From NCBI GenBank assembly GCA_903917705.1, contig CAIXBQ010000015.1:42429-106428 (forward strand): a DNA stretch of 64,000 nt. The letters are read 5' to 3'. The notes under the pieces are model-generated. The model was not told where the DNA came from. It did no database searches and saw only the letters and a program-made list of their open reading frames with translations. Origin of the DNA: an uncultured Verrucomicrobia subdivision 3 bacterium (GTDB lineage Bacteria; Verrucomicrobiota; Verrucomicrobiia; Limisphaerales; UBA11358). The position numbers were made by a program, and so were the translations under genes. The stretch's first letter is position 1, and the number at the start of each line of letters is the position of its first letter. Of the stretch, positions 27,953 through 58,545 are shown in pieces.

Positions 27953-28810
27953 TTATTTCTCGACCGGCTTACCGGCTTTGGCCCACGCCCTAAAGCCGGC
28001 GGGCAGGTTATAGAGATTGGGGAAATCAAGATGGTTGAGCTTGTCACATGCTCTGGCGCTGCGCACGCCGCTGGCACAATGCACCAGATAAGTTTTGTTC
28101 CGGTCGAGCAAGGCCGCTTTGGCTTGAAAGTCGGACGCGGTAACGTCGAGGTTCACCGCTCCCGGGATATGGCCGGCTTGAAATTCCTCTGCCGTGCGCA
28201 CATCCAGAATCACGTTTTGTTTGTCATCCGCCATGCGCGCAAATTCTTCGACGCTCAAGTTTTTATAGGCGGCTGTGGCATCAGGCGTCGCAGCAGTTCC
28301 GGGATGCCGCTGAAGTTTCGGCAAGACTTCCGCCGCTCCACCGCCCGCGTAGCCAGTTTCCTGAAAAACCGTTTCACCTGTGTCATTCAACAGCACAATG
28401 GTGGGAAAACCTTCGCCCGGTTCCCGGCTTAAATTGAACCGGGCTTTCAGCACGAGATTGGTTCGTTTTAATTCTTCGCTTTGCGTGGACTTTTGCGGAA
28501 AGTCCACGTCCACGAGAATCAGCGCGCGGCGGGCGTATTGAGTAAACTCCGGGGAGGCAAAAACCTGATGCTGCATTTCAACGCACGGCGGGCACCAGTC
28601 AGAACCATGAAAAAAGAGCAGGACGGATTTGCCTTCAGCTTTTGCCCGAACCAGCGCTTTCGGAAGGTCAGTCAACCAGATCAGTTCGGTTTGGTCAGAC
28701 TGGCGCGCGGTAGTCGTCGCCGGGGTTTCTGGCGTTTGGGCATCCGCCATCACCGCCACGCCTGCCAGCAGAGTTGCGAAAATTAAGGCGGTGATTGGAC
28801 TGTTTTTCAT
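27953..28810 (-). CDS. Exported thioredoxin-rhodanese fusion
   Basis: LLFFHGSDWCPPCVEMQ and NVILDVRTAEEFQAGHIPGA...VHCASGVRSARA in one ORF. Confidence 0.88.
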   Translation of the reverse strand: MKNSPITALIFATLLAGVAVMADAQTPETPATTTARQSDQTELIWLTDLPKALVRAKAEGKSVLLFFHGSDWCPPCVEMQHQVFASPEFTQYARRALILVDVDFPQKSTQSEELKRTNLVLKARFNLSREPGEGFPTIVLLNDTGETVFQETGYAGGGAAEVLPKLQRHPGTAATPDATAAYKNLSVEEFARMADDKQNVILDVRTAEEFQAGHIPGAVNLDVTASDFQAKAALLDRNKTYLVHCASGVRSARACDKLNHLDFPNLYNLPAGFRAWAKAGKPVEK

Positions 28811-28881
28811 TTTTCAATTTTGCGGCAGATGTTGATTCACGACAATGCACATTTCATTCACAAATTGCTTGGAACAGCGAG

Positions 28882-29346
28882 TTAGTAAATCCACGGAATG
28901 AATCGCCGCACGCGTCGCTCATAGCCCGCATATTCTGGGAATTGCTGCCGCAGCCAACATTCTTCGTGCCGGGCTTTGGCGTCAAAAAACACACCCAGCA
29001 CCAAGGAAACGACCAAGGCCGGACCGCTTTGCCAAACAAGTGACCAGCCCACGGCGGCACAAAAAACAGCGGTGTAAAGCGGATGCCGAATCAAACTATA
29101 AATGCCATGCTGAACCAATTGTGTTCCACTCGACGGCTTTGGAAACGGGGTCAGGTTACGCCCCAATCTCATCAGACCGGCAATGCCGCAAATCGCGGAA
29201 ACCGCGAGAAAGACCAAACCACAGATGAAAATCGGAAGCGACTTCGATGTCGCGCGACTGGTGATGCCCATAATGGCGATGGCAAACAGGAGCAGGAATT
29301 GCCCAACCACCCACCAGCCGCCGCGTTGGACAAAGCTGTTACTCAT
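28882..29346 (-). CDS. Isoprenylcysteine carboxyl methyltransferase-like membrane protein
   Basis: LVQHGIYSLIRHPLYTAVFCAAVGWSL, C-terminal EE-motif region HEECWLRQQFPEYAGYERRVRRFIPWIY. Confidence 0.8.
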   Translation of the reverse strand: MSNSFVQRGGWWVVGQFLLLFAIAIMGITSRATSKSLPIFICGLVFLAVSAICGIAGLMRLGRNLTPFPKPSSGTQLVQHGIYSLIRHPLYTAVFCAAVGWSLVWQSGPALVVSLVLGVFFDAKARHEECWLRQQFPEYAGYERRVRRFIPWIY

Positions 29347-29941
29347 GGCGGCGGGCTAAAACTTGCACCACCGCGCCGCGCCCCGTGTGCCCATCGCCCT
29401 CGATGACATCGCGTTCGATTTCGCGCCCAATTACAAATTCCAGTCCCGCGAATTCTTTACGGAGGTTGGCCAGAGTCATCAGCAATTCGGGAGATTTTGG
29501 CCCGCCGGTGTCGAAGGCTAGTTGCGCCGGGGTATAGGCTTCCAGAACGAACACTCCGCCAGGCCGCAGACCACGCACCGCTTGCGCGTGAACTATGCGC
29601 CGAATCGCTGGCGGCAAATGGGCAAACGTAGCGACGATGCCAGACCAAACACCCGGCTTGATGGTAAAGTTTCCCAGATCAGCAAGCACCGTTTCAATTT
29701 CCACAACGCGAGCCGCCGCGAGTCGCCGGGCTTTGGCCAGACCAGCTTCGGATTGATCCACCGCAGTCACCGTATGACCAAAAGTCGCAAGGTGAACGGC
29801 GTTGCGTCCCTCGCCCTCGGCGAGACAAAGCACCGGACCGGCGGGAATCTTTGACGCCATTTCCGCCACGAAGGCATTCGGTATTTCGCCGTAAATATAT
29901 TGCGGCGCGGCGAAGCGGTTATTCCAAAAGGCAGCGTCCAT
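29339..29941 (-). CDS. Class I SAM methyltransferase (TehB-like)
   Basis: WNNRFAAPQYIYGEIPNAFV, PVLCLAEGEGRNAVHLA. Confidence 0.8.
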   Translation of the reverse strand: MDAAFWNNRFAAPQYIYGEIPNAFVAEMASKIPAGPVLCLAEGEGRNAVHLATFGHTVTAVDQSEAGLAKARRLAAARVVEIETVLADLGNFTIKPGVWSGIVATFAHLPPAIRRIVHAQAVRGLRPGGVFVLEAYTPAQLAFDTGGPKSPELLMTLANLRKEFAGLEFVIGREIERDVIEGDGHTGRGAVVQVLARRHE

Positions 29942-29994: not shown

Positions 29995-30021
29995 CGAGCC
30001 ACCAGCGAAGGGAAAGTTACA
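29995..30021 (-). promoter_or_regulatory. Putative ECF-type promoter, site 3 (TGTAACTTTCCCTTCGCTGGTGGCTCG)
   Basis: TGTAAC-N15-GGCTCG, 54 nt upstream of the methyltransferase start. Confidence 0.65.
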
Positions 30022-32667: not shown

Positions 32668-33120
32668 ATGAAAAACTGGAAAGTCATCGTCGCCACGGTG
32701 GTCATTTTCTGCACGGGTGCCACCACCGGCGGCCTGTTGATCAAATATGTTCAGCATTCGCATCCCAAAGCTCCGCGCCGTGCCACTGCCACGAGTGAAG
32801 TTCATCCGTCAGCAACGAACCATTCACCACGCACGGTCAACGCCGCCCAGCCGCAACCGCCCGAAGTTTTGAGCAAACACTTCTTGCAACGGCTGGATGA
32901 GAATTTGCATCTCCCGCCGGAGCAGCACGAGGCAATTCAAAAAATCATCAGCGAAGGCCAGAACCAAATGCGCAAGGTCATTCAGGATTCGCGACTTGAA
33001 ATCCGCGAAGCCCTCACGCCTCCCCAGCGCCTGAAATTCGACGTCCTCATCCAACGCCGCTTCCATCACCCCCTCTTCACCACCAATGCGCCGACGGCCT
33101 TGACCGCCGCATCTCAATAA
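32668..33120 (+). CDS. Spy/CpxP-like periplasmic protein
   Basis: N-terminal anchor; HLPPEQHEAIQKIISEGQNQMRKV...LTPPQRLKFD. Confidence 0.55.
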   Translation: MKNWKVIVATVVIFCTGATTGGLLIKYVQHSHPKAPRRATATSEVHPSATNHSPRTVNAAQPQPPEVLSKHFLQRLDENLHLPPEQHEAIQKIISEGQNQMRKVIQDSRLEIREALTPPQRLKFDVLIQRRFHHPLFTTNAPTALTAASQ

Positions 33121-34136
33121 CTCATCCGGTCGAGCTTCACCTTGCCCCGGAAAATCCAGTAGATGCAAACCGTGTAGGCGATGACCACCGGCACGCCGAT
33201 GCACGCGATGACGAGCATGATGCCGAGCGTTTTCGGCGACGAGGCGGCGTTGTAAATTGTAAGGCTGTTTTCAGGATTCGGCAGGCTGTAAATCATGTTC
33301 GGAAAAATGTTCAATGCGAACAACGCCATCAATGTGACAATCGTAGCGCACGACGAGAGAAACGCCTTGCCGTCGTTGCCGTGATGAAATTCGCGCGGGA
33401 TGTTCGCGATGGCCAGCATGTTCGCCAGTGCCACGGAAAAGAGCCACGGATTTTCGCGGACGCGCGCGGCCATGTGCGGCACATAGAGCAGCGTGGACAT
33501 CGTGAGCGTCACAGCACAAATCACAAAAAAGATGATGCAACCCATCGCCCAGCCGCGCAGTTTGTCATGCAGTTCGCCTTCCGTTTTCATCACGCCGTAA
33601 ATCGCGCCGTGCATCATAAACAGTGCCACGGTCGTCACACCGACCAGCAGCGGATACGGCGACAGCAGGCCAAGAAACGTCCCGGCGAATTCGCCATTGG
33701 CATCCACCGGCACGCCCCAGGCGATGTTACCGAGCGCAGTGCCAATGAGCAGGGACGATACAATGCTGCCAACGGAAAAACTCACATCCCACATTTGCCG
33801 CCACCAGCGTTCGGGACGTTTGCTGCGAAATTCAATCGCCACCGCGCGAAAAATCAGTGCCGCGAGCAGCAGCATCAACGCGAGGTAAAAACCGGAAAAT
33901 GCCGTCGCATAGACATTCGGAAACGCGGCGAATAGCGCGCCGCCGCCGGTGACGAGCCAGACTTCGTTGCCATCCCAAACCGGCCCGATGGAATTGAGCA
34001 TGACGCGGCGTTCTTCATCTTTGTTCGTGAAAAGATGCAGCGCACCGATGCCGAGGTCGAAGCCGTCCAGCACGGCGTAGCCGGTCAACAGAACGCCGAC
34101 GAGGATGAACCAGATGGTATTGAGATCAAGGTGCAT
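33114..34136 (-). CDS. cydB: Cytochrome bd ubiquinol oxidase subunit II
   Basis: TIWFILVGVLLTGYAVLDGFDLGIGALH, GPVWDGNEVWLVTGGGALFAAFP. Confidence 0.95.
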   Translation of the reverse strand: MHLDLNTIWFILVGVLLTGYAVLDGFDLGIGALHLFTNKDEERRVMLNSIGPVWDGNEVWLVTGGGALFAAFPNVYATAFSGFYLALMLLLAALIFRAVAIEFRSKRPERWWRQMWDVSFSVGSIVSSLLIGTALGNIAWGVPVDANGEFAGTFLGLLSPYPLLVGVTTVALFMMHGAIYGVMKTEGELHDKLRGWAMGCIIFFVICAVTLTMSTLLYVPHMAARVRENPWLFSVALANMLAIANIPREFHHGNDGKAFLSSCATIVTLMALFALNIFPNMIYSLPNPENSLTIYNAASSPKTLGIMLVIACIGVPVVIAYTVCIYWIFRGKVKLDRMSY

Positions 34137-34144: not shown

Positions 34145-35506
34145 TTAGTTTTTGGTGGGCAGCGCGAGTTTGCCGGACGGAATCAAATCCGCGTCATCCG
34201 GGCCGTGCTGAATTTTGTCATTGAGCAGGTAAATGAAAACGGCGAACAGCAGTGAATAAATCAGCGTGAACAAAATCAGCGATGACAAAACGACGTTCGC
34301 CTTCACCACGGCGGACAAACCGGCGGGCGTTCGCATCAGGCCATAAACAATCCACGGTTGCCGCCCGACTTCAGCGGCGAACCAGCCGAGCTGATTGGCG
34401 AGCTGCGGGCCAAGCACGGAGAAAACCAGAATCCACAGCAGCCAGCGGCGTTCATGCAAAGTGCCTTTGCGGAAATATAAAAAGCCGAGCGACGCCACGG
34501 CAATCAGGGTAAAACCAATGCCGACCATGCCGTGAAAAAACAGGAATGACGGTGTGACTGGCGGACGATCTTCCGGCTTGAACTCGTTCAGTCCAATGAC
34601 CGGCGAGTGAAAATCGTTGTGCGTGAGAAAGCTCAACATTCCCGGCGCGGAAATACCGATGACTTTTTCATTTTTCTCATCCGGCCAACCCACCAGCACG
34701 AGCGGCGCATTGGAAGTAGTTTCGTAAAGTCCCTCGAACGCGGCGAGTTTGGCCGGCTGATTCTTTTCCAAACCCTGTGCGCTCTTGTGGCCGGTGACGG
34801 CTTGCAGCAGCGTCGAAACGAGCGCCACGGTAAGGCCGACTTTTAGTGACTTGCGGGCAAATTCCAGATGTTTTCCTTTCAGCAAATACCATGCGCTGAC
34901 GCTCACCACGAGAAATGAGCCGGCGCACCACGCGCCACAAATGGTGTGGAACAACCGGTCCAGCATGGAGGGATTGAAAACGAGTTGCCAGAATTCGGTG
35001 ATTTCCGCGCGGGCGTGCATTCCTTCGCCAACGATGTGATAACCGGCTGGCGTCTGCATCCAGGAATTCGCCACAACGATCCACACCGCGCTGAAATGCG
35101 CGCCGAGCGCCACCATGCACGTCGAAAAAAAGTGCAGCTTGCGACCGACCTTGTCCCAGCCAAACAGCAGCACCGCGAGAAAACCGGATTCGAGGAAGAA
35201 CGCAAAAATTCCTTCCGCCGCCAGCGCGCTGCCGAACACGTCGCCCACAAAACGTGAATAGGTCGCCCAATTCGTGCCGAACTCAAATTCCATCACGATG
35301 CCCGTCGCCACGCCGATGGCGAAGGTGAGCGCAAATACCTTCGTCCAAAACCGCGCCATCTGGTGATAAAGGTTGTTGCCGGTTTTGAGCCACGCGCCTT
35401 CCATCAGCACTAGCATGATGCCCAGCCCGATGCTTAAAGGTGGATAAATGTAATGAAATGCAATCGTTGCGCCGAACTGAATTCGTGAGAGGGTTAAGAC
35501 ATCCAT
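34145..35506 (-). CDS. cydA: Cytochrome bd ubiquinol oxidase subunit I
   Basis: [55 protein letters not shown]. Confidence 0.95.
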
Positions 35507-35591: not shown

Positions 35592-36149
35592 CTATAAGGC
35601 GTGCGTTGTTGCGGTTGCTGGCGGGTTGGTTTGCAGCAGCGAATCCAGCCGCAGGATCAAATCTTCCTTCGCGACCAAGCCGACGAAGGTTCCCGCAGTT
35701 TTCCCATTCTGGAGAAACACCAGCATCGGGATGCCTTCAACTTGAAATTTCTGCGCCAGCTTGGGCGACTCGTCCACGTTGACTTTGACAAACTTGAATT
35801 TGCCCGCGTATTGATCTGCCAAGCTGTCCATCGTGGGCGCGAGCTGACGGCAGGGGCCGCACCACGTTGCATAGAAGTCCATGACCACCGGCACCGCCGA
35901 CTGCATTACTTCGGCGTCGAAGTCCGCATCCGTGATGTGCTTCACATTGGTGGTAGATTGATTCATCGCCGTGGAATTGCCGCCGCCGGATGACAGATAA
36001 ACTACCAATCCTATGACCGCACCGACAAATGCACCGCGCCGCCAGTTCGCCGTCAATGGGCAGGCACCGGATTTGCAACTGCCAAAATATCCCAGCCCAG
36101 CGCCCACGCCGCCGCCAATCAGAACGTAAATTAAAAGTGTTGGGGTCAT
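35592..36149 (-). CDS. DUF6132-like membrane domain fused to thioredoxin
   Basis: N-terminus GGGVGAGLGYFGSCKSGACPLTANWRRGAFVGAVIGLVVYL, C-terminus PVVMDFYATWCGPCRQLAPTMDSLA. Confidence 0.85.
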   Translation of the reverse strand: MTPTLLIYVLIGGGVGAGLGYFGSCKSGACPLTANWRRGAFVGAVIGLVVYLSSGGGNSTAMNQSTTNVKHITDADFDAEVMQSAVPVVMDFYATWCGPCRQLAPTMDSLADQYAGKFKFVKVNVDESPKLAQKFQVEGIPMLVFLQNGKTAGTFVGLVAKEDLILRLDSLLQTNPPATATTHAL

Positions 36150-36155: not shown

Positions 36156-36506
36156 TCAAGGCTTTGCCCGAATTTGACCGAAATGGAGATCAAGCAGTTC
36201 CGTCGCTTGGGTGACACAGGATTCGCACGGATGCACTTTGGCCGCGCGCAGTTCTTTGCAGTTAATCGAGCCGAGCCGAGCGGCGAAATTTTGCTTCAAC
36301 GCTTCCGCCCGGTCGGGCGCGACCATGCAGGCCGTGTGCAATGCCCCGCAAAGTCCGCCCGGTGCCCGTCCGCCGCCAAAGGATTTGAGATCGGCGAGCA
36401 GTATTGAAGTGTCGCCGGAAACTTCGCGCCATGCGTGCAGCACGGACTGGGCGCAATTGAGCCGTTCAGGATCTTTCCGAAAAACTTTCAGCGCGTGTTC
36501 TTTCAT
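36156..36506 (-). CDS. C_GCAxxG_C_C family protein
   Basis: LNCAQSVLHAW, GGRAPGGLCGALHTACM, CESCVTQATELL. Confidence 0.8.
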   Translation of the reverse strand: MKEHALKVFRKDPERLNCAQSVLHAWREVSGDTSILLADLKSFGGGRAPGGLCGALHTACMVAPDRAEALKQNFAARLGSINCKELRAAKVHPCESCVTQATELLDLHFGQIRAKP

Positions 36507-36515: not shown

Positions 36516-37451
36516 TCATTTCGTTCGTTTATCTGCCAGGAATTGAGCCGCGATCGGCGTAAAAGTTACAAAGTTAGTTTGGTTTGCCCCGCCAGTGGGA
36601 AGTGAAGCATGGTCGTGTTCGTGATCGGCGTGACCGAAGCGCGTGATGGCCACCGTGACCGCCAGCCCCGTCAGCAGGGCCAGTGAAAGTATGAAACGGT
36701 CATGCGAGTGAAATTGCAGTTCCGGCAGCAAGTCGGCGCAGGCGATGCACAGAAATGTTCCGGCGCAAAAAGCCAGTGCATAACCAAGCCAAGCCGGATG
36801 TTCGTGAGCCCAGGCTCCCGCGCCAAAGTAAAACAGCAGCGCGCCCAGCGGTGTCACCAAGGCAAACGCCAGATTCACGAGATGCCGTGATGTGCGCGTC
36901 GCGCCGCTCGCCGCCATCAGCGTGATGATGGCCAGCGCGCCGAAGGGTTTGTGCAGGATCACCGCCAGCGCTGTGCCCAGACTCAGCGCGCCGCCATGAC
37001 CGTGAGTGTCCGCCGCCACGGCGGCGGCCATCGCCAGGCCGTCAAAAATTGAATGGAGTGACAGGCCAATCGCCACCCCCATCCAACTCAAGCCGCGTGC
37101 CGACTGTTCCGCCAGCGAATGGGAATGACCACAAGTTTCTTCCGGGCTGCCATCAGGCACATCGTGATGATGGAACGGCAGGAAACGCTGGAGGAAGAAC
37201 ATTAACAGGAAGCCGCCCAGCAGCCAGCCGGTAGCTAGGTGAGCTGAGTGCAGTTCACCCATCGCGTGCGGCAACAAACCCAGCAGGGAAAGTCCCAGCA
37301 TCAGCCCGGCGACGAAGCTGATGGCAATTTGCAGCCGCGCATGACTCAACTTGAACACCGTGGGCAACGCCCCGCCCGCCAAGGCCGCAACCAACGCGAG
37401 GGCGCAGTAACCCACCAGCAACCAGGTCGGCAAAGAAAAAATTGTGTTCAT
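36516..37451 (-). CDS. ZIP-family metal transporter
   Basis: Eight TM pattern; His-rich loop FLPFHHHDVPDG; IGLSLHSIFDGLAMAAAV, ILHKPFGALAII. Confidence 0.9.
   Translation of the reverse strand: MNTIFSLPTWLLVGYCALALVAALAGGALPTVFKLSHARLQIAISFVAGLMLGLSLLGLLPHAMGELHSAHLATGWLLGGFLLMFFLQRFLPFHHHDVPDGSPEETCGHSHSLAEQSARGLSWMGVAIGLSLHSIFDGLAMAAAVAADTHGHGGALSLGTALAVILHKPFGALAIITLMAASGATRTSRHLVNLAFALVTPLGALLFYFGAGAWAHEHPAWLGYALAFCAGTFLCIACADLLPELQFHSHDRFILSLALLTGLAVTVAITRFGHADHEHDHASLPTGGANQTNFVTFTPIAAQFLADKRTK
36544..36570 (-). promoter_or_regulatory. Putative ECF-type promoter, site 4 (TGTAACTTTTACGCCGATCGCGGCTCA)
   Basis: TGTAAC-N15-GGCTCA embedded in the 3' coding end of the ZIP gene, upstream of the C_GCAxxG_C_C gene. 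Confidence 0.7.
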
Positions 37452-39478
37452 GGCGATAAAGCGGGATGTGGGTGCATGGATGTTGCGTGCCCGGTTTGGG
37501 AATGAGCCGGACAGCTTGGTGCCGACATGTCTTGAGTTGAATCGCGCAGATGCGGCTCAAGTTCCTCGCCCTGCCGCACCAAGCGAAAACTGTTGGACAC
37601 GACCAGCAGCGAACCGGCCACATGAAAAATCGCCGCAAGGATGGGGTTGATGTAGTTCAGCGCGGCCAGAACCATGCCGCCCACCACGAAACCCAGCCCG
37701 ATCAGAAAATTCTGGTTGATCACCCGGCGCGTTTCCCGCGAGAGCCGCACGAGAAATGGCAAACGACGAAGGTCATTGTTCATCAGCGCAATGGTCGCGC
37801 TATGAATCGCCACTTCACTTCCCGCCGCGCCCATCGCGATGCCGAGGTCGCCAGCGGTCAATGCGGGCGCGTCATTCACGCCGTCACCCACGACCGCGAC
37901 GCGATAGCCTTTGGCGCGAATCTGGCGGACGTAATCCACCTTGTCCTGCGGCAGGCAATCGCCCACGACTTCGTCACAGCCCAATTCCAACCCGACCCGG
38001 CCGGCCACCGGCTGGCGGTCGCCGCTCACCAGCGCGATCCTCCGCACGCCATTCAATTTTAATTCGGCCAGCGCCTCCTTCGCTTCGGCGCGGGTCTGGT
38101 CCTGCAATCCCACCCAGCCGATGCACTGCTGATTCCGCGCCACGAAAATCAAGCTCCAGCCTTCGGCTTCATTCAAATCCACTGACTTGAGAAAGCCACC
38201 GTCCACGCCATTGTCGTGCAGCCATTGCGCCCGCCCGATAAAAACCTGGTCGCCATTTAATTTTGCCTGGATACCGCGCCCGGCGGTTTCCGCGAAGTCC
38301 GTCGCGGCGATGAGCGGGACGCCGGCTTGCGTGGCCAATTGCACCAGCGCTTTGGCGGTGGGATGGTTGCTGAATTTTTCCGCCGAGGCCGCCACGCGCA
38401 GCAACTCCGCCGGCGTCACTTGGTTCAAAGGCGCAAGCCGGCTGACAGCGAGTTTGCCGGTGGTCAGCGTGCCGGTTTTGTCGAAAATAAAGGCGTTAAT
38501 CTTGGCCACCAGTTCGAGGTCGCCCACATTCTTGATGAGAATGCCCAACCTAGCTGCCGCCGCCAGCGCCGCCACCACTGCCGTGGGCGACGCCAATACA
38601 AACGCGCACGGACACGAAACAATGAACACGGAAACCACCCGGTTCAGATCGTGCGTGAACGCCCATACCAATCCACCGATGCAGAGCACCAGCGGCGTGT
38701 AGAATCCCATGTATTGGTCTATGATGCGGACAATGGGGAGCTTGGTTTTTTCCGCCGCAAGAATGAGATCGCGCACGCGGCCCAGCGTGGTGTCGTGCCC
38801 CGCGCGCGTGACGCGGATGTCCAGCACGCCGGTCAGGTTGATGGTGGCGGCAAAGACTTCGTCACCCGGCTTTTTATCCACTGGCAGCGATTCCCCGGTG
38901 ATGTTCGCCTGATTGAGCGAGCCTTGCCCGTTCACGATGACTCCATCCGCCGCCACATTGTCGCCCGGCCGCACCCGGATCAAATCGCCCACGCCCAATT
39001 CATGCACGGCCACCTCGTGTTCCTCGCCGTTTTGAATGCGCCGGGCCTTGGTGGGCGTGAGCTTAATCAGAGAATGAATGGAAGCCAGTGCGCCTTCCGC
39101 GGTGCGCGTTTCGATAATCTGCCCCAGTAGCATGAAAAACGAAACGATGCCCGCTTCGGGATAGTGTCCCGACGCAAATAGCGTCACCACCGCCAGTGCC
39201 ACCAAGACGTTGGTGTTGAGCGAACCGGCCCGCAAATCTTTGAAGGCAACCCGCACGATCGGAAATCCAAGGATCGCCGCGCCCACCATCGCACTGAATC
39301 CAGCCACCGTCTCGCTGTCTTGGAAAAACCATCGCACAAGAAACGAGTTGAACACCAGTGTCAGCCCGACCAGCGTGTGGACTAATTGTGCCTGGACGTG
39401 CGAATGATGTTCGCCGCAGGCACACGCGCCGTCGTGCGTGTGTTCGTGCAGATGTTCAACGTGGGAGGCGGCTCTCAT
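37448..39478 (-). CDS. P1B-type heavy-metal translocating ATPase
   Basis: FIVSCPCAFVLASP, FDKTGTLTTGKLAV, GDGVNDAPAL; His-rich N-terminus. Confidence 0.93.
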   Translation of the reverse strand: MRAASHVEHLHEHTHDGACACGEHHSHVQAQLVHTLVGLTLVFNSFLVRWFFQDSETVAGFSAMVGAAILGFPIVRVAFKDLRAGSLNTNVLVALAVVTLFASGHYPEAGIVSFFMLLGQIIETRTAEGALASIHSLIKLTPTKARRIQNGEEHEVAVHELGVGDLIRVRPGDNVAADGVIVNGQGSLNQANITGESLPVDKKPGDEVFAATINLTGVLDIRVTRAGHDTTLGRVRDLILAAEKTKLPIVRIIDQYMGFYTPLVLCIGGLVWAFTHDLNRVVSVFIVSCPCAFVLASPTAVVAALAAAARLGILIKNVGDLELVAKINAFIFDKTGTLTTGKLAVSRLAPLNQVTPAELLRVAASAEKFSNHPTAKALVQLATQAGVPLIAATDFAETAGRGIQAKLNGDQVFIGRAQWLHDNGVDGGFLKSVDLNEAEGWSLIFVARNQQCIGWVGLQDQTRAEAKEALAELKLNGVRRIALVSGDRQPVAGRVGLELGCDEVVGDCLPQDKVDYVRQIRAKGYRVAVVGDGVNDAPALTAGDLGIAMGAAGSEVAIHSATIALMNNDLRRLPFLVRLSRETRRVINQNFLIGLGFVVGGMVLAALNYINPILAAIFHVAGSLLVVSNSFRLVRQGEELEPHLRDSTQDMSAPSCPAHSQTGHATSMHPHPALSP

Positions 39479-39885
39479 GGCGTTTGAAATTCAAGGTGGA
39501 GCCGGCACTCGTGTGGCTGATTGGCCTGACCGCGCTGGTGATCACAGCCCTGCGAGGTTTGAGGTAGCTGTCCTTGCAAACACTCGGCCACCAGCACTCT
39601 CACCAATTCGCGAGAACGCCCGGTGCATACCTCGATGCCGTGGTGAACCAAATTTCCGAACGCCCGCTGACCAATGCCGTTGCGGCCAACGATAAGAACT
39701 TGAACGCCCTGTGCGCGCAGCCAGCGGGGAAACGAACCCGGCTCATGCGGCGGCGCTTCGACGGTTTGGGAGCAGCCAATGGCGCGGCTTTGCCGATTCG
39801 CATCCACGAACTCAAAATGTGTGGCTTCCCCAAAATGTTCGAGGAGCCGACCGTCAACCACGGGCATGGCAATTTTCAAATTCAT
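39475..39885 (-). CDS. NifX/NifB-family (dinitrogenase Fe-Mo cofactor-like) protein
   Basis: MNLKIAMPVVDGRLLEHFGEATHFEFVDANRQSRAIGCSQTVEAPPHEPGSFPRWLRAQGVQVLIVGRNGIGQRAF. Confidence 0.85.
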   Translation of the reverse strand: MNLKIAMPVVDGRLLEHFGEATHFEFVDANRQSRAIGCSQTVEAPPHEPGSFPRWLRAQGVQVLIVGRNGIGQRAFGNLVHHGIEVCTGRSRELVRVLVAECLQGQLPQTSQGCDHQRGQANQPHECRLHLEFQTP

Positions 39886-40256
39886 GGTTGTGCCATTGCA
39901 GGATGGTCTTGGTTGATGAAGTTTTTTCCATCGGCCCGCGCCAGCAGTTCGTGCAATTCCCGCTGGGACAACTCGCCCATGAACTGATAGCAGACCGTCT
40001 CGCCATTGAACAACAGGACGGCGGGCAGCGAGATGATGCCAAATCGCGCCAACAGTTCGGGAGATTCCGTCGGAGTGGCTTTCGCAATCATGGCAGAACT
40101 GTGGCTGCGCGTCGCGTTCGTCAACAACGTCTGGAGCCTTTGGCTGGCGGAACAACCGTCCGCGCAAAATGCCAGCAGCACCGGCACTTTGGATTGCATC
40201 ACCGTTTCAGCAAAAGAACGGTCAGTGATTTCGAGAATGGTGTTTGGGGAAGTCAT
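39882..40256 (-). CDS. Thioredoxin-like protein with CSAS active-site motif
   Basis: MTSPNTILEITDRSFAETVMQSKVPVLLAFCADGCSASQRLQ...FGIISLPAVLLF. Confidence 0.8.
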   Translation of the reverse strand: MTSPNTILEITDRSFAETVMQSKVPVLLAFCADGCSASQRLQTLLTNATRSHSSAMIAKATPTESPELLARFGIISLPAVLLFNGETVCYQFMGELSQRELHELLARADGKNFINQDHPAMAQP

Positions 40257-40263
40257 GGAGGTT

Positions 40264-40461
40264 TCAAAAGTTGCGATGGTGCGCCGGGCAACCATAAACT
40301 CGTTCGTAAGCGCGGCAGAAAGGGCACAGTCTGGCTTCAACGTGCTTCACCAGCCAGAAGGCGAATCCTCGTTGCCGCTTGCGGGCACGCCGGCAGACCG
40401 GGCAGTTTGCGCAAACTCTGGCTAGGGCTTTGTCGAGTGAGGAGGCGCTCCGGGTGCTCAT
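40264..40461 (-). CDS. Small zinc-ribbon-like protein (65 aa)
   Basis: CANCPVCRRARKRQRGFAFWLVKHVEARLCPFCRAYERVYG; ATGA overlap with trmO. Confidence 0.65.
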   Translation of the reverse strand: MSTRSASSLDKALARVCANCPVCRRARKRQRGFAFWLVKHVEARLCPFCRAYERVYGCPAHHRNF

Positions 40462-40952
40462 GCTGATTGGCTTTCTGCATCTTTCGCGAAACGCCCGTCG
40501 GCGATCCCCGTCCCACGAGCGTGGGCATACCACCCAACGCGTTCGACCGGGAATACGTCGTAATCGGGGATGAATGGTTTGACGTCCAATAGCGGTGTGC
40601 CGTCCAGCACGTCCAGATCAGCCACCCGCAGCGTGGCTCCATCCACGGCCAGAAGTCGCACACAGGAAATGCCGATGGCATTGGGCCGGCTGGGGGCGCG
40701 CGTGGCAAAGATTCCGTGGGTTTGCGTGTCGAGGTAAGGAACGACCTCGAGTTGCGCTGCCCGCACCCGGTCGAACCAGTAAAGCAGCCAGATGCGGTCG
40801 AATCCATCGAGGTCGCGCAAGCCCGGCGCGAACTCGGTAAACACTTCCACTGTGCCCTCGATGCCCGCCGCCCAACGAGGTTGAATCGGCGTGCCTTCCG
40901 CCTGATGATGCGGCGAGTGAATCAATCCGACAGGCCTGAGTTCGAGTTTCAT
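40458..40952 (-). CDS. trmO: TrmO/TsaA-family tRNA-methyltransferase-like protein
   Basis: PVGLIHSPHHQAEGTPIQP, GFDRIWLLYWFDR, GIFATRAPSRPNAIGISCVRLL. Confidence 0.88.
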   Translation of the reverse strand: MKLELRPVGLIHSPHHQAEGTPIQPRWAAGIEGTVEVFTEFAPGLRDLDGFDRIWLLYWFDRVRAAQLEVVPYLDTQTHGIFATRAPSRPNAIGISCVRLLAVDGATLRVADLDVLDGTPLLDVKPFIPDYDVFPVERVGWYAHARGTGIADGRFAKDAESQSA

Positions 40953-40975
40953 GCGGTATGTTGAGTTTGCATGGA

Positions 40976-41320
40976 TTACTGGTGCGGACGATTTCCGTCG
41001 TCCATGTATATGATGGCCGGTTTCCGACTGCGTGCTTCCTCGTCGTCCATCCAGCCAAACGCCATGATGATGACCCGATCGCCAATCTGCCCCAGACGCG
41101 CAACCGCCCCGCGCAGGCTGATCTGGCCTTTCTGGCCCGTGATGGCATAGGTCTCAAAGCGGACGCCGTTGTTCAGATTGGCCACCAAGACTTTTTCGCC
41201 CGGCAAAATATCCGCTGCCCGCAGCCATTCCGGGTCGCAGGCAACGCTGCCCTCGTAATTCAACTCCATGTCGGTGACAGTCGCCCGGTGAATTTTACTT
41301 TTGAGCATTTGCCGGAACAT
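40976..41320 (-). CDS. panD: Aspartate 1-decarboxylase
   Basis: MFRQMLKSKIHRATVTDMELNYEGSVACDPEWLRAADILPGEKVLVANLNNGVRFETYAI, including the Gly-Ser self-cleavage site. Confidence 0.9.
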   Translation of the reverse strand: MFRQMLKSKIHRATVTDMELNYEGSVACDPEWLRAADILPGEKVLVANLNNGVRFETYAITGQKGQISLRGAVARLGQIGDRVIIMAFGWMDDEEARSRKPAIIYMDDGNRPHQ

Positions 41321-41322
41321 CT

Positions 41323-41748
41323 TTACCTCCGCTCCTGTTGGAACAATTTTTCTGCGCCGCTGTAAGCCTCCTCGACCCGCAGCAGTGTCGCCGCCACGCC
41401 GGGATACTTCGGGTCGTGCCAGGACTGCATGTTGGCAAAAATGGGGCCGTCAGTGTGATAGGTCAGGGAGCCTTTCACCTGAAACGACTTGCGTTCCTTG
41501 GTGATAAACAAGATGGCTCCGCGCGTCCCGCTTTTGATGTTGGCGCGGGTTTTCGAGAAATAATTGTCCGCCACTATGAAACCTTCGCCGGGAAAGTAAC
41601 TGATTTCGCCGACGTAAATGGCATTGGGCGTTTTTGCCACATCCACCGTCGCGAATACCGCCGGCCCCTCGCGGTTTTCCCAGGCTTGGGCAACGAGACT
41701 CAGGCCGTCAGTGGTTGATAGAACCTCGCTTGGTTGATTTTCTTTCAT
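41323..41748 (-). CDS. Pyridoxamine 5'-phosphate oxidase-family protein
   Basis: GPAVFATVDVAKTPNAIYVGEISYFPGEGFIVADNYFSKTRANIKSG. Confidence 0.8.
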   Translation of the reverse strand: MKENQPSEVLSTTDGLSLVAQAWENREGPAVFATVDVAKTPNAIYVGEISYFPGEGFIVADNYFSKTRANIKSGTRGAILFITKERKSFQVKGSLTYHTDGPIFANMQSWHDPKYPGVAATLLRVEEAYSGAEKLFQQERR

Positions 41749-41769
41749 AATTTGTTTTGTGCTCGTCGC

Positions 41770-42666
41770 TCAAGGTTTTCCGATTTTGGCGCTGGCGAGT
41801 TCCGCCGCTTCGGGAACATTGCGATGCAAAACCAAGGTGCCAACCGGCTGGCCGATATGCCGGCCCACGACGGCGCATTTGACCTTGAACAAGAAGAAAA
41901 TGTTTTGCCCGCCGCCGTCCAGCGACTCAAAATTCGCCTGCCCCTTGGCGATAATCAGATCGGCGCGCGCAAACCGCCGCTGAAACTCCGGGCTGCATGT
42001 TTCCAGCACAATGCCTGCGCCATCACAGCCGGTGTCCGTCACGGCCACCCACCCGTCGAGGCCGGCCACGGTGGCATCCGCGCGCAAGGCGTCGTTGATG
42101 GCCGGGCCTCCTTTGACGACAACCGTGATTTTTTCGCGCGGCAATAATTCGAGCAGTAGCCGGTCAAAAACCAGTTCCCCCGCGTTGTCCGCCAGAAACA
42201 AAATTTCCGTCGCGCGTTCCGCCGCCGCGAAGAATTCTTCTACATCGCCCGTGAACGGCCCAGCAAAGGAATTCTCCAGCGCGGCGGGAATTTGTGCCGC
42301 CGTCAAATCGCCCTTGATGCCGTAATCAATGACGTTGCCGGCGATGGCCATTTTAACGGCAGTCTGGCGCGGGTTCGCCGCTGTTCTTAGCCGCTCGCGC
42401 CAGACGGGCAACAGCGCCAGCGCGAGCCGGTTGGATTCCTGTTTGACGGCCAGATAAGGATCCACCTGTCCCGTAAGCTCGCGCACCCATTGATGCAGGC
42501 TCCGGCCAAACTGCGGCGGCGACTGGGTTAAATCCGCCTGGCTGGCGCGGCGCAGCACTTCGCGTAAAATCTGTTCCTGAACGCGCCCATCCGAAGTCAC
42601 CATGCGGGCGACGTTCAGTCCTTGCGACACGAAACAAGGCAGGCAAGCCAGGGTGCTTTTCATCAT
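41770..42666 (-). CDS. DUF89 (ARMT1-like) protein
   Basis: CLPCFVSQGLNVARM, ILFLADNAGELVFDRLLLELL, DLIIAKGQANFESL. Confidence 0.88.
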   Translation of the reverse strand: MMKSTLACLPCFVSQGLNVARMVTSDGRVQEQILREVLRRASQADLTQSPPQFGRSLHQWVRELTGQVDPYLAVKQESNRLALALLPVWRERLRTAANPRQTAVKMAIAGNVIDYGIKGDLTAAQIPAALENSFAGPFTGDVEEFFAAAERATEILFLADNAGELVFDRLLLELLPREKITVVVKGGPAINDALRADATVAGLDGWVAVTDTGCDGAGIVLETCSPEFQRRFARADLIIAKGQANFESLDGGGQNIFFLFKVKCAVVGRHIGQPVGTLVLHRNVPEAAELASAKIGKP

Positions 42667-43134
42667 TCAATGCGCCGTTGCGGCTTCGTGGTCACAGCCC
42701 TCATGGCTGTGATCATGCTCGTGATGGTGATGGTGACCATGCTCATGTTCGTGATGATGGCCGTGGTTTTTGCAACCCTCGGGGGTTGCGGTCAACTGGC
42801 CGGCCAGGTAGGTAGCGACCAGCACTTCAATGCGGGCATTCACCTCACCGGCGAGCACAATGACGCCGTTCACCAAGAGGTTGTTGAGACAGCCTTTGCC
42901 CATGCCGCCGGCAATGACCACCCGCACGCCCTGTTCCCGCAGCCAGCGCGGATACAAGCCGGGTTTATGCGGCGGCGCGGCGATGGTTTGTGTGGAGATT
43001 ACCGTCCGGCTTTTGGGGTCGGTGTCCACGAGCGTAAATTCGCGACATCCACCGAAATGGCCGTGCAGTTTTCCATCAGCAGTCGGGATGGCGATGCGAA
43101 TAATGTTTTCTTTGGGAGCGATGGCAGTTGTCAT
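42667..43134 (-). CDS. NifX/NifB-family protein with His-rich tail
   Basis: IRIAIPTADGKLHGHFGGCREFTLVDTDPKSRTVISTQTIAAPPHKPGLYPRWLREQGVRVVIAGGMG; tail HGHHHEHEHGHHHHHEHDHSHEG. Confidence 0.88.
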   Translation of the reverse strand: MTTAIAPKENIIRIAIPTADGKLHGHFGGCREFTLVDTDPKSRTVISTQTIAAPPHKPGLYPRWLREQGVRVVIAGGMGKGCLNNLLVNGVIVLAGEVNARIEVLVATYLAGQLTATPEGCKNHGHHHEHEHGHHHHHEHDHSHEGCDHEAATAH

Positions 43135-48699: not shown

Positions 48700-50157
48700 C
48701 TATTCCGGCACCATTCGCCAAAATGGATTGGCCTTAGCTTTGTATAGGAATGCGAAATGCAGCAAATGCTTGATCCAATGGCCAGCCAGCCCAATTTCTC
48801 CCGAGGTGTAACGCAACTGGCGCCCGGTATCGGGGTAGGTTTGAAAATCAGGAACAATCGGATACATCGTCATGGACACAGCAGTGCCGTTCCAGAAATT
48901 TGAACCGGCGGAAGCGATGCAGGCCGCGCCCATTTTAGCGAGTGAGGCTTGCCGAGTCGGCACGGTGCTTTTGCCCTGCATCATATCCGTGACATTGAAG
49001 GCGACCTGTCGGGCCATTACGCCGGACGGCATCCCGGTGCGCGGCGGTGCGGGAAAAATCGGCGTGCCTTTGGGGTTGATCATCGGCTTGGAAATCGCGT
49101 GCGGTGGCGCAAAGGCGATGCCGACGGCAAAAATGTTTTTGTATTTCGGGTTCTGATAGGTGTTCGGCCAGTCAGACGGCAGCCATTTTTCGTAGGGCTT
49201 TGGCTCGTAATTGCCGTCCACGAGCATGAAACCACTCTTGGCAAAAAGCGTGGTGGTGATGTCGGCACCCTGCTTGTCGAACGCCTTGAGGCCGACACCG
49301 GCGAAGGGCGGTAAAAGCATGGCAAAATCAAACGGCACGGTCTTTTCATTGCCGTCGAGGTCTTCATACAAAATGGTATCCTTGCCGACCTCCTTGACGT
49401 GGGCGCGGGTGATCCATTTGACGCCGCGTTCGGTGTAAAGCGATTCCGTGAAAACGCGCGAGTGGGTGATGTAGCCGCCGCGTTTGATGTGCATTCCGCC
49501 GATGCCAAAATCACCCAACTCCTGTTCGTTGGAAATCCAAATGATGGTGGCATTGTTTCGCACCTTTCGCTGGCGCAGCACAAATTCCACGTTGAAAAGA
49601 TATTCAAACGCCGCGCCCTGGCAGGTGCAAGTCCCGTGACCCGTGCCAATGACAATCGTCTTCTTCTCGCCGCGTTGCATCCGGGCGACCAGTTCGTCCA
49701 ACGCTTTGGAGGCATGGGCCGCATGGTCAAAAGTGCAGACGGATTGGCTATTGTGGAGCGGTCCCAAGCCCGGCGTGGCATCAAAGTTCAGCTTGGGGCC
49801 GGTCGCATTGATCAAATAGTCATAAGTGACGGTTTCCCTTTGCCCCTTTTTCTCATGCGAAGTGTGTTCCACAGTCACAAATGGCTGCGGGTTATCGGCA
49901 TCGCCTTCGGGATGGATGCTGACTGCCTTGGCTTGGAAATACGTTATGCCCGTTTTCTTATACACTGGTGCCAGCGGAAACGTGACCTGTTCCGGTTGCA
50001 TCACCCCAACTCCGACCCAGATGTTCGAGGGAATCCAGTTCCATAAACTGTTGGGCGTGACAACGAGGACTTCATGGCTGCCGCCCAGTCGTTTCTTCGC
50101 ATGAAGCGCGGCGGTCTGCCCGGCAATGCCGCCACCGAGAATAACGAGACGTGCCAT
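48700..50157 (-). CDS. Sulfide:quinone oxidoreductase-like FAD/NAD(P) oxidoreductase
   Basis: N-terminal FAD motif ARLVILGGGIAGQTAALHAKKRLGG; PNSLWNWIPSNIWVGVGVM; co-located with rhodanese and DUF2892. Confidence 0.8.
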   Translation of the reverse strand: MARLVILGGGIAGQTAALHAKKRLGGSHEVLVVTPNSLWNWIPSNIWVGVGVMQPEQVTFPLAPVYKKTGITYFQAKAVSIHPEGDADNPQPFVTVEHTSHEKKGQRETVTYDYLINATGPKLNFDATPGLGPLHNSQSVCTFDHAAHASKALDELVARMQRGEKKTIVIGTGHGTCTCQGAAFEYLFNVEFVLRQRKVRNNATIIWISNEQELGDFGIGGMHIKRGGYITHSRVFTESLYTERGVKWITRAHVKEVGKDTILYEDLDGNEKTVPFDFAMLLPPFAGVGLKAFDKQGADITTTLFAKSGFMLVDGNYEPKPYEKWLPSDWPNTYQNPKYKNIFAVGIAFAPPHAISKPMINPKGTPIFPAPPRTGMPSGVMARQVAFNVTDMMQGKSTVPTRQASLAKMGAACIASAGSNFWNGTAVSMTMYPIVPDFQTYPDTGRQLRYTSGEIGLAGHWIKHLLHFAFLYKAKANPFWRMVPE

Positions 50158-50180
50158 AAATTTCCTTTATTGGGTTGGTT

Positions 50181-50555
50181 TCACCGGGAGGTTGATTGGT
50201 TTACGACGCTTTCCGCCCGACCATAGGAGCCAAGGTTGAAAGCGTTCGTGTAACCCAAGCCTTTCAATTTGCTTTTCGCCATGCCACTGCGCATACCGCT
50301 CGCGCAGTGCAACAACAGCACCTGGCTCTTATCCTTCACACGCTTCGGCAACGCGGTTTCAATTTCGTCGAGCGGGATGTTGATGGCCTTGGCCAGATGG
50401 CCGGAGTTGAATTCACCGGCACTGCGCACATCTATCACCAGCGCGCCGTTTTTAAGTTTTTCAAAGGCGTCTTTGGTCGAAATCTGGCCGGATTGTTTCA
50501 TCATAAAAATGGCCGCGACAATTGCCACGATGACTAAAATAGTTATCCAATTCAT
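50181..50555 (-). CDS. Membrane-anchored rhodanese-like protein
   Basis: MNWITILVIVAIVAAIF...LVIDVRSAGEFNSGHLAKAINIP...LLLHCASGMRSGMA. Confidence 0.88.
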   Translation of the reverse strand: MNWITILVIVAIVAAIFMMKQSGQISTKDAFEKLKNGALVIDVRSAGEFNSGHLAKAINIPLDEIETALPKRVKDKSQVLLLHCASGMRSGMAKSKLKGLGYTNAFNLGSYGRAESVVNQSTSR

Positions 50556-50559
50556 AGGG

Positions 50560-50775
50560 TTAATCCTCGTCGTCATCATCTGCTGCTTCACCAAGTTGTT
50601 TTTTCAAATAGTTCTTTACTGGACAAAAGCCAGTGAAGCCGGAGATGACTAAATAAGCACTGACCAGAAACGTCAGCAGCAGCCACCACTGACTGACCAC
50701 TTGCGAGAGCCAGACGCTGATGAGAATCAGTGCGCCAGCCAGAATCCATACCAAGCTGTTCATCAACCTGTTCAT
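50560..50775 (-). CDS. DUF2892-family small membrane protein
   Basis: MNRLMNSLVWILAGALILISVWLSQ...FTGFCPVKNYLKKQLG. Confidence 0.8.
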   Translation of the reverse strand: MNRLMNSLVWILAGALILISVWLSQVVSQWWLLLTFLVSAYLVISGFTGFCPVKNYLKKQLGEAADDDDED

Positions 50776-50783: not shown

Positions 50784-50810
50784 TGAGCCGCAGAACAGTA
50801 AAAAGTTACA
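50784..50810 (-). promoter_or_regulatory. Putative ECF-type promoter, site 5 (TGTAACTTTTTACTGTTCTGCGGCTCA)
   Basis: TGTAAC-N15-GGCTCA, directly upstream of the DUF2892-rhodanese-SQR operon. Confidence 0.7.
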
Positions 50811-56008: not shown

Positions 56009-57550
56009 TTATTTCATGCCGGTGGCATTCCCGGAGGCGGGCAGCCACAAAACAAAAGCTGTCCAGCCGGCGCGCCCCTCCTTTAGCGAGAGTTCTCCGC
56101 CGTGGGCACGCGCAATCTCCCGCGCCAGACTTAAGCCCAGGCCGATGCCGTCAACCTGCCGTCCGCCGGCATGACTGACCCGATAAAACCGATCGAATAT
56201 TCTCGTTTGCTCATCCGACGGTATGCCGGGGCCGGTGTTACCGATGGTGAAAACAACCTGCCCGTTCGCGGCCTCGAGCTGGACGCTGATCTGTCCGTCC
56301 GTCTCGTTGTATTTGATGGCGTTCATGATGAGGTTGAATAGCGCGGTGTGCAGCAGCGCTCGGTCGGCCACCACCATCAATTGCAGCTGGATTGCCACGT
56401 CAAATTGCAGATGGACATCGGCGGCGAGCACGCGGGCGTCCTCGATCATCGCGTCCAGTTCCGCGCTCAAATCCACGGGTTCGCGCGCGAGCTTGAGTTG
56501 GCCGGCGTCGGCTTGGGCGAGCAGGAGGAGACTGCGTGTGATGGTTTTCAGGCGTTGGGTTTCATCGAGGAGATTGCTGAATAGTCGTTGTTCGGCCGAG
56601 CCGGGCGCGGCGGATTTCAGTGCGCTTTCCAATTCACCCTGCATCACAGTGAGTGGCGTCTTCAATTCGTGTGAGGCGTCCGCACTGAACCGGGTCGCCT
56701 GCCTGAAGCTCGTTTCCAGGCGCTCCATCATGCGATTCAAGACTTGAATGACGCGGCTGGCTTCCGGGCTTTCACCCGCGTCGGGAATCCGCTGCTCCAA
56801 CCCGCGCGCGGTGAAACGCTCGGCTGTATCGGCGATGGTCTTGAGCGGACGCAACGCGCGGCCCGCGACCGCCCAGCCGCCGAGGCCGACGAGAAACAGC
56901 GCCACTGGCAGCGTGAGCAAAAACGCGGCGCGCACCCGATTAAGTTCTTGTTCCACTTCCTGCTGGTTGAGGCCGATGACCAGCGTCACGTCATCATTGC
57001 CCAGCACGCCCACCCGCCAAGTGGAATTCGCCGCTTTGACAGTGAAGAATTTTGGGGACTTGGTGAAAACCACGTTGGGCGGCGGCCCGCCACGGCCTTG
57101 TCCGAAGCCGCGTCCGCCGAAGCCACGTTCCATGCCGGAATCAGTCCCTGGCGCTGCGGCGGCGGGAATATTCGTCCCGCCATCTTGCGCCATGGCAATG
57201 TGGTTGGTTTCCTCCAAGCGCAGGCTGTAAATGTCCGGTGCAATTTCTTTCGGCCAATATGGCGAACAGAAGATAGTGCGTCGGGCGGCGTCCTTGATCA
57301 GGAGAATGATGTGGTTGGTGTAATCGTCGCCGAAGGTGGATTCCAGCGAGCCGGCCAGCCGCTCGTAATTGCCGCGACCGGCAAACAAGCCGGGATGGCG
57401 CGTGCCAAGCGAACGGATTTCACGGTCCACCGCCTCCAGGCGCACCTGATAAATGAGCAGCCACATCACCACGCCAAACACCACCAGCACCAAGCCGGAA
57501 ATGCCCGCCGAGAGCAGCGCGATCTTGAGGCGTGAGGGCAGCGCCTTCAT
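56009..57550 (-). CDS. Sensor histidine kinase
   Basis: FSADASHELKTPLTVMQGELE, GIGLGLSLAREIARAHGG. Confidence 0.92.
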   Translation of the reverse strand: MKALPSRLKIALLSAGISGLVLVVFGVVMWLLIYQVRLEAVDREIRSLGTRHPGLFAGRGNYERLAGSLESTFGDDYTNHIILLIKDAARRTIFCSPYWPKEIAPDIYSLRLEETNHIAMAQDGGTNIPAAAAPGTDSGMERGFGGRGFGQGRGGPPPNVVFTKSPKFFTVKAANSTWRVGVLGNDDVTLVIGLNQQEVEQELNRVRAAFLLTLPVALFLVGLGGWAVAGRALRPLKTIADTAERFTARGLEQRIPDAGESPEASRVIQVLNRMMERLETSFRQATRFSADASHELKTPLTVMQGELESALKSAAPGSAEQRLFSNLLDETQRLKTITRSLLLLAQADAGQLKLAREPVDLSAELDAMIEDARVLAADVHLQFDVAIQLQLMVVADRALLHTALFNLIMNAIKYNETDGQISVQLEAANGQVVFTIGNTGPGIPSDEQTRIFDRFYRVSHAGGRQVDGIGLGLSLAREIARAHGGELSLKEGRAGWTAFVLWLPASGNATGMK

Positions 57551-58221
57551 GCGCCGGCCTTGATGCGATAGCCCACGCCGCGAATGGTCTCGATGAGCTT
57601 GTTGGGAAAATCACCGTCCACTTTTTTACGCAGGCGCTGGACGTAAACCTCCACGAGATTTGTGCCCGGATCAAAATTGTAATCCCAGACCCGCTCGCAA
57701 ATCTCAACCCGCGTCAGCACGCGGCCCGGCGAGCGCATCAGATGTTCGAGCAGCGAAAATTCGCGCGCCGTCAACTCGACGGCTTGGTCTCCGCGCGCCA
57801 CCTTGCGCGTGAGCAGATTCATTTTTAGATCTGCCACGGCGAGGATGCTCTGACTGGTGCCCGCCGCGCGCCGGGTGACCGCATGGAGACGGGCGATCAA
57901 TTCCTCGATATGAAACGGTTTGGTAAGGTAATCATCCGCGCCAAGATTCAACCCTTCGAGGCGCTCGTTGAGTTCGCTGCGAGCCGTCAGCAGGATGACC
58001 GGCAGTGCAATCTTTCGTTCGCGCAGATTGCGCAGGATGCTCAAGCCATCTTTGCCCGGCAGCATGATGTCGAGCACGAGCGCGTCGTAAGGCCGCGAAC
58101 ACGCCAACATATATCCCTCATCGCCGTGCGTTGACACCTCGACGACGAAACCCTGCGCCTCCAGCCCTTTGCGGACAAAGGAGGCGATCTTTTTCTCGTC
58201 TTCGATAACCAGGACTTTCAC
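57547..58221 (-). CDS. OmpR-family response regulator
   Basis: MKVLVIEDEKKIASFVRKGLEAQGF; winged-helix C-terminus; ATGA overlaps on both sides. Confidence 0.92.
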   Translation of the reverse strand: MKVLVIEDEKKIASFVRKGLEAQGFVVEVSTHGDEGYMLACSRPYDALVLDIMLPGKDGLSILRNLRERKIALPVILLTARSELNERLEGLNLGADDYLTKPFHIEELIARLHAVTRRAAGTSQSILAVADLKMNLLTRKVARGDQAVELTAREFSLLEHLMRSPGRVLTRVEICERVWDYNFDPGTNLVEVYVQRLRKKVDGDFPNKLIETIRGVGYRIKAGA

Positions 58222-58475
58222 AGGGCGTTTTCACTGCCCGGAAATTTTTCTTTCCACTTTTTGCGCAGCGTGTCGTGCATTTTTTCGCGAAATTGAATAG
58301 GCATCGCATACGGCTGGCCGTCCTTGTAGAGCGTGATGGTCTGGCGGATGTTATCCACGACCACCTGGCAGGGATTGCACCCCGCCATGTGCTTCTCGAA
58401 CTCGACGCAGACCGCCGGATCAACCGTGCCGTCCACATATTCGTTCAACATCGCCAGCAATTCTTCGCACTTCAT
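58218..58475 (-). CDS. Soluble zinc-finger (ZAS-type) anti-sigma factor
   Basis: MKCEELLAMLNEYVDGTVDPAVCVEFEKHMAGCNPCQVVV: HxxxCxxC motif, no TM helix, 85 aa. Confidence 0.8.
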   Translation of the reverse strand: MKCEELLAMLNEYVDGTVDPAVCVEFEKHMAGCNPCQVVVDNIRQTITLYKDGQPYAMPIQFREKMHDTLRKKWKEKFPGSENAL

Positions 58476-58496
58476 GGTATTTATCTCTTTAATGAC

Positions 58497-58523: not shown

Positions 58524-58545
58524 AGGTTTGTGGCAAAATGAGTTT

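Follow-up and report, generated by a model that had tools for sequence, protein, structure and literature searches.

A DUF6132 membrane hairpin fused to thioredoxin, and the matching unfused gene pair, in a candidate ECF sigma factor regulon with a possible role in reactive-sulfur handling

The 64,000-nucleotide stretch of DNA analyzed here, from now on referred to as the window, encodes a DUF6132 (PF19628) domain together with thioredoxin at two separate loci, once as a single protein and once as neighboring genes. The ORF at 35592-36149 (minus strand) translates into a 185-aa product in which Pfam profile scans identified DUF6132 at residues 5-54 (57.1 bits, cut-off 23.2) and Thioredoxin (PF00085) at residues 69-166 (109 bits, CGPC motif present), confirming the original prediction that an N-terminal DUF6132 segment precedes a CGPC thioredoxin in this protein. 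The same two modules had been predicted as separate neighbors at 4449-4974, where a trxA gene (4621-4974, minus strand, 108 bits for Thioredoxin) is indeed followed after 4 nt by a 55-aa ORF (4449-4616, minus strand) matching DUF6132 at 31.4 bits against the same cut-off. A profile search found no further DUF6132 gene in the source genome, a 66%-complete MAG. The genes at the two loci are:

4449-4616, minus strand: unfused DUF6132 protein, 55 aa (profile and model)
4621-4974, minus strand: thioredoxin trxA, lacking a signal peptide (profile)
5126-6567, plus strand: ArsR regulator and ArsP-type permease, divergent from and adjoining the trxA-DUF6132 pair
34145-35506, minus strand: cytochrome bd oxidase subunit I (cydA), beginning 85 nt past the fusion gene (profile scan)
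35592-36149, minus strand: DUF6132-thioredoxin fusion with helices at aa 2-22 and 36-55, a C25/C30 loop and thioredoxin at aa 69-174 (C97-G-P-C100)
36156-36506, minus strand: putative redox protein of the C_GCAxxG_C_C family, first gene of the fusion operon (profile scan)

The fused thioredoxin scores above the TIGR01068 equivalog cut-off and contains a WCGPC active site, the cis-Pro region and a complete thioredoxin fold, which in structure comparisons is nearest to ancestral and E. coli thioredoxins (2trx). TrxA is a free soluble protein, whereas the thioredoxin of the fusion is preceded by a membrane hairpin. The trxA product of the unfused pair carries no signal peptide and should therefore be cytoplasmic. 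Pairing of a C_GCAxxG gene with a DUF6132-thioredoxin fusion is also found in three relatives (L188, L189 and L190). The gene following cydA (33114-34136) is presumably cydB, judging from its sequence. The divergent operon next to the unfused pair (5126-11686) encodes ArsR, the ArsP permease, a membrane fusion protein (MFP), a MacB-like permease, an ABC ATPase, Trx_3, an anchored thioredoxin, zf_CopZ and DsbD_TM. A third thioredoxin-like gene (39882-40340) is located amid two Nitro_FeMo-Co-domain genes and an ARMT1-like gene in a cluster (39475-43134) upstream of Zn ATPase and ZIP genes.

DUF6132 proteins consist of two helices connected by a CxxGxCP loop, as seen in alignments and models, and the window proteins resemble the family in this architecture and in scoring above its cut-off. 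The fusion was modelled from 12 sequences with a mean pLDDT of 86: two membrane-length helices (residues 2-22 and 36-55) precede a complete thioredoxin, and C25 and C30 both fall in the loop joining the helices. The unfused protein was modelled as the same hairpin at lower confidence, and the alignment shows that the linker of the fusions varies in length and sequence. Both cysteines are retained in 207 of 209 DUF6132 proteins, a count comprising 204 by strict pattern and three by reading the sequences, with part of the set pre-selected for the second cysteine. Copies missing one cysteine are rare: one is L198:548-712 (GAFP), and in L074:4423-5073 the first cysteine is lost and a new one follows PLT. 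A structure search returned no solved DUF6132 match at E-values up to 1. A search of the open-access literature found no paper on DUF6132 or PF19628, its one text match concerning plant EamA/DUF6 transporters.

Profile searches identified DUF6132 in 50 of 291 genomes sampled from the window's phylum and in 66 of 299 Bacteroidota genomes. Thioredoxin is fused to DUF6132 or encoded within 1 kb of it at 22 of 50 own-phylum loci and at 25 of 76 loci from diverse phyla, the enrichment in the latter set being read with care when taken by itself because its search pattern demanded the second cysteine, whereas HMM searches supplied the own-phylum and Bacteroidota sets. In a third set of 65 loci, nearly all from Bacteroidota and including two from Bdellovibrionota, a thioredoxin lies within 1 kb of DUF6132 at 43 loci, a same-strand thioredoxin within 200 nt at 29 and a rhodanese within 1 kb at 19. 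Background density was estimated from 131 thioredoxin domains in ~49.5 Mb (12 genomes), so that <1% of loci would be expected to have a thioredoxin within 1 kb by chance. Thioredoxin density around DUF6132 is 40-67 per 100 kb within 150 nt compared with ~1 at 2-5 kb. The association recurs in Verrucomicrobiota, Bacteroidota, Elusimicrobia, Fibrobacterota, KSB1 and others. The survey of DUF6132 neighbors and fusions put forward with the original prediction thus revealed a large thioredoxin enrichment in all three sets.

Altogether, about 18 DUF6132-thioredoxin fusions were seen: besides the window protein, 11 more were found in 10 genomes around own-phylum matches and own-genus relatives contribute six further examples. 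The reverse order, thioredoxin followed by DUF6132, occurs in a Bdellovibrionales MAG (L146), and two Clostridiales MAGs encode DUF6132-rhodanese fusions (L126:5004-5510 and L151:4920-5498). In a thioredoxin tree, the reverse-order protein is found in a well supported clade apart from the other fusions, so that at least two fusion events likely took place and a single origin for all fusions was rejected; the remainder of this tree is poorly resolved and too short to resolve the DUF6132-thioredoxin fusions. The Rosetta-stone argument of the original prediction, namely that DUF6132 proteins act with thioredoxin, is strongly supported by the enrichment of DUF6132 beside thioredoxin and by fusions in both orders. 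Further close neighbors of DUF6132 are YgaP-TM (PF11127), YeeE pairs, DUF302, a zinc-ribbon protein, ArsR and RND efflux genes and, in relatives, a CoA-disulfide-reductase-rhodanese (CoADR-rhodanese). A gene for a small P-II-like protein separates DUF6132 from an RND efflux gene at 12 own-phylum loci, among them L035, L041, L044 and L048. Directly 3' of one DUF6132-thioredoxin fusion, a 570-aa protein (L187:7819-9528) combines HEAT repeats with a following thioredoxin.

The motif TGTAAC-N15-GGYTCR is found in nine copies in the source genome, six of them inside the window, while a reversed control motif yielded 0 copies in the same genome. In 1.35 Mb of fetched loci, a non-random collection mostly retrieved for DUF6132, 33 matches were found at spacer 15 and 0 at spacers 12, 13, 14, 16, 17 and 18, a spacing control that is independent of how the loci were chosen. 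Together, the two controls (9 versus 0 and 33 versus 0) exclude chance as the origin of the motif. Aligned sites widen the consensus to TGTAAC(T/C)TTT ... GCGGCTC(A/G)GT; the ninth copy, on contig C95 (TGTAACGATT...), departs from it and was treated as a chance match. The window copies and the features associated with them are:

433-459, minus strand: motif ahead of a YgaP-TM gene (189-422) and an outer-membrane efflux gene
4990-5016, minus strand: motif ahead of trxA, exact copy, 15 nt upstream of trxA
29995-30021, minus strand: motif ahead of methyltransferase, ICMT-like and Trx_7-rhodanese genes (27953-29941)
36544-36570, minus strand: motif ahead of the C_GCAxxG/fusion (then cydA) operon, exact copy, 37 nt upstream of the C_GCAxxG gene
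48700-50775, minus strand: YgaP-TM (50560-50775), membrane rhodanese (50181-50594) and sulfide:quinone-reductase-like flavoprotein (48700-50157)
50784-50810, minus strand: motif ahead of the YgaP-TM/rhodanese/SQR-like operon
56009-58221, minus strand: response regulator and histidine kinase, heavy-metal/HprR-like, 3' of the anti-sigma gene
58218-58475, minus strand: zf-HC2 (HxxxCxxC) anti-sigma-like protein, 85 aa
58497-58523, minus strand: motif between the sigma and anti-sigma genes
58546-59262, minus strand: ECF sigma factor (Sigma70_r2 and r4_2), proposed regulator

Genes preceded by the motif encode YgaP-TM, rhodanese, SQR-like, peroxiredoxin, thioredoxin and DUF6132 proteins. A copy had been predicted in front of both DUF6132 loci; exact copies do exist at both, but the second precedes the first gene of the operon and not the fusion directly. 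Although located within the 3'-terminal part of the ZIP transporter ORF upstream, the copy at 36544-36570 is an exact consensus match. The product of 27953-28810 combines Trx_7 and rhodanese domains and has an apparent signal peptide; its gene closes a motif-led operon that also contains two genes of the methyltransferase type.

The sigma factor of the window consists of Sigma70 regions 2 and 4 without other domains and has an adjacent zf-HC2 gene, as does its paralogue on contig C12, where the cluster reads ECF, site, anti-sigma, rhodanese, site, YgaP-TM and membrane fusion protein. The sigma factors of these two paralogous ECF/zf-HC2 pairs (58218-59262 and L163:4647-6089) are 85% identical, and both pairs carry the motif between their genes. 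The ECF-site-anti-sigma order is repeated at four other loci (L105, L189, L195 and L198). Of 59 relatives, 17 encode an ECF orthologue (≥60% identity), and 14 of these have a TGTAACYTT-type site; among the 42 without an orthologue, 3 do (Fisher p 2.9e-8). Because position, exact spacing and genome co-occurrence agree, there is good evidence that the motif represents an ECF promoter and that the adjacent ECF factor would be its sigma factor.

In systems of the SigR-RsrA type, an ECF sigma factor paired with a zinc-containing HxxxCxxC anti-sigma factor responds to thiol stress and controls thioredoxin genes. The window system is similar in combining an ECF sigma factor and an HxxxCxxC anti-sigma protein with control sites before thioredoxin genes, but differs in its lineage, in its promoter (TGTAACTTTT...GCGGCTCRGT) and in a regulon weighted towards rhodanese, YgaP-TM and DUF6132. 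Among the genes of this putative regulon, rhodanese and YgaP-TM are clearly identified; SQR is assigned by weak similarity, the SQR-like protein scoring far below the NCBIfam cut-off, and CoADR-rhodanese is found in relatives. The motif regulon and the DUF6132 neighborhoods also hold YeeE-type pairs, peroxiredoxin and thioredoxins. Based on this gene content, reactive-sulfur or thiol stress is the favored interpretation of what the regulon would respond to.

The arrangement of the fusion in the membrane limits what can be said about its mechanism. Charges are balanced between the tails and the loop of DUF6132, so that the positive-inside rule gives no topology. Signal peptides are absent from most adjacent TrxA proteins and from the N-terminal thioredoxin of the reverse-order fusion L146, suggesting that thioredoxin is probably cytoplasmic; since the N- and C-termini of a two-helix hairpin are on the same side, the cysteine loop would then face outward. 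In the model, the loop and the fused thioredoxin are found at opposite ends of a membrane-length hairpin and would thus be on opposite sides of the membrane, making direct reduction within one molecule unlikely. The attached thioredoxin could directly reduce the loop only if hairpins were arranged antiparallel, the loop were re-entrant or a helper protein took part. Confidence in any electron-passing model is limited by this geometry, and the mechanism proposed below is accordingly given about equal weight for and against. The original interpretation therefore stands as far as the DUF6132-thioredoxin link is concerned, while passage of electrons through the membrane cysteine pair is unproven and, with the loop opposite thioredoxin, geometrically awkward.

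Closest to that earlier interpretation is a membrane thiol-disulfide relay, a miniature DsbD/CcdA in which cytoplasmic thioredoxin would reduce the DUF6132 cysteine pair and, through it, periplasmic thiols. The near invariance of both cysteines is consistent with it, as are CcdA/DsbD_TM and signal-bearing thioredoxin genes at some DUF6132 loci and the Trx_3, anchored thioredoxin and DsbD_TM genes divergent from the window pair. However, DsbD/CcdA cysteines sit inside the membrane domain, whereas DUF6132 is modelled with only two helices and has both cysteines in a single loop outside the membrane core; the fusion has no DsbD_TM match in the profile scan. CcdA is close to only 5 of 126 DUF6132 loci, and a relay leaves the rhodanese, YgaP-TM and YeeE neighbors unexplained, so that we consider it improbable; the neighbors point more to sulfane-sulfur handling, a reading absent from the original interpretation, than to a plain disulfide relay. 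A metal or metalloid thiol-stress module, with the cysteine pair binding Cu, Zn or As and delivering it to RND, ArsP or P-type pumps while thioredoxin keeps DUF6132 reduced, would account for the RND genes within 1 kb at 22 of 50 own-phylum loci and ArsR at 13 of 50, for ArsR/ArsP adjoining the window pair, for the ZIP and heavy-metal P-type ATPase genes upstream of the fusion and for the heavy-metal-like kinase/regulator pair. Yet RND genes are found at only 5 of 76 diverse loci and at 0 loci within 1 kb in the Bacteroidota set, where thioredoxin and rhodanese dominate, and the SQR-like, rhodanese and CoADR-rhodanese members of the regulon are sulfur enzymes. This explanation, too, appears rather unlikely.

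The hairpin might also act purely as an anchor, tethering thioredoxin near clients such as cytochrome bd or YgaP, which would fit an ordinary fused thioredoxin and a linker of variable length and sequence. Most DUF6132 proteins are encoded by separate genes, though, making covalent anchoring impossible for them, and tethering does not need two nearly invariant cysteines; we regard simple anchoring as very unlikely. That the neighborhood reflects chance or hitch-hiking without any functional link is hardly credible: the source genome is an incomplete MAG (66%), but recurrence over many phyla, two fusion orders and a common promoter motif all argue against it.

We hypothesize, with even confidence for and against, that DUF6132 is a membrane hairpin with a paired-cysteine loop that acts as a partner of thioredoxin in the handling of reactive sulfur (sulfide, persulfide, polysulfide and thiosulfate sulfur) within an ECF-controlled regulon. 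The trxA-DUF6132 pair and the fusion would belong to one regulon whose ECF sigma factor would be kept in check by an anti-sigma protein of the zinc-finger (thiol) type. Further products of this regulon would be YgaP-TM, rhodanese and the SQR-like enzyme, with cytochrome bd made alongside the fusion. We infer the signal, chemistry, topology and direction of transfer in the following scheme. Thiol or sulfur stress may free the sigma factor, as its zf-HC2 partner suggests, and the sigma factor would then transcribe the genes behind TGTAAC-N15-GGYTCR, consistent with motif position, spacing and co-occurrence. At the membrane, the DUF6132 cysteines could accept sulfane sulfur or a disulfide and be reduced by the fused or neighbor-encoded thioredoxin, releasing H2S or a thiol. 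The products might be handled by SQR, rhodanese and a sulfide-tolerant bd oxidase, as the gene content suggests. Many DUF6132 genes located beside RND efflux, ArsR or ArsP genes count against a sulfur role, as they fit metal or metalloid stress as well.

The membrane domain of YgaP, a membrane sulfurtransferase, is dimeric and consists of two helices (PMC4730233). DUF6132 proteins are similar to YgaP (rhodanese plus PF11127) in joining a small two-helix membrane domain with a Cys-Pro motif to a sulfur or thiol enzyme; YgaP-TM genes are among the commonest close neighbors of DUF6132, and the promoter motif is common to both. However, Cys-Pro closes helix 2 in YgaP-TM but sits between the helices in DUF6132, the partner is rhodanese in the former and thioredoxin in the latter, and profile scans of the fusion detected neither rhodanese nor PF11127. 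Homology between DUF6132 and YgaP-TM was rejected, hhalign giving a probability of 20% and a strained alignment. YeeE-type proteins import sulfur species, and their short PmpA/PmpB forms have been linked to sulfane sulfur (PMC11582611). Like DUF6132, YeeE/TsuA and PmpA/PmpB are small membrane proteins whose genes accompany those for rhodanese and thioredoxin-type proteins, and they contain functional cysteines; YeeE-type genes occur together with DUF6132 at three loci (L251, L271 and L296). In contrast to the two-helix DUF6132 hairpin, these transporters have nine or four helices and belong to another fold family. A sulfane-sulfur cluster of Bacillus includes a putative thioredoxin (PMC9918477). 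A more far-reaching and doubtful possibility is that DUF6132 serves as a minimal membrane sulfur carrier, its glycine-rich hairpins forming oligomers in which CxxGxCP would pick up sulfane sulfur or a thiol/disulfide equivalent on one side of the membrane and deliver it across to thioredoxin or rhodanese, all as part of a sulfur-stress regulon with its own ECF sigma factor.

Both DUF6132 and thioredoxin are catalogued families, and control of thioredoxin by an ECF sigma factor with a zinc anti-sigma protein is of a known kind. Fusion and adjacency to thioredoxin and rhodanese, the near-invariant cysteine pair and membership in an ECF regulon give a concrete and testable role to DUF6132, a widespread family without an assigned function. 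If correct, this role would extend the bacterial machinery for reactive sulfur by a small membrane protein, and the promoter motif would allow the regulon to be read in uncultured Verrucomicrobiota.
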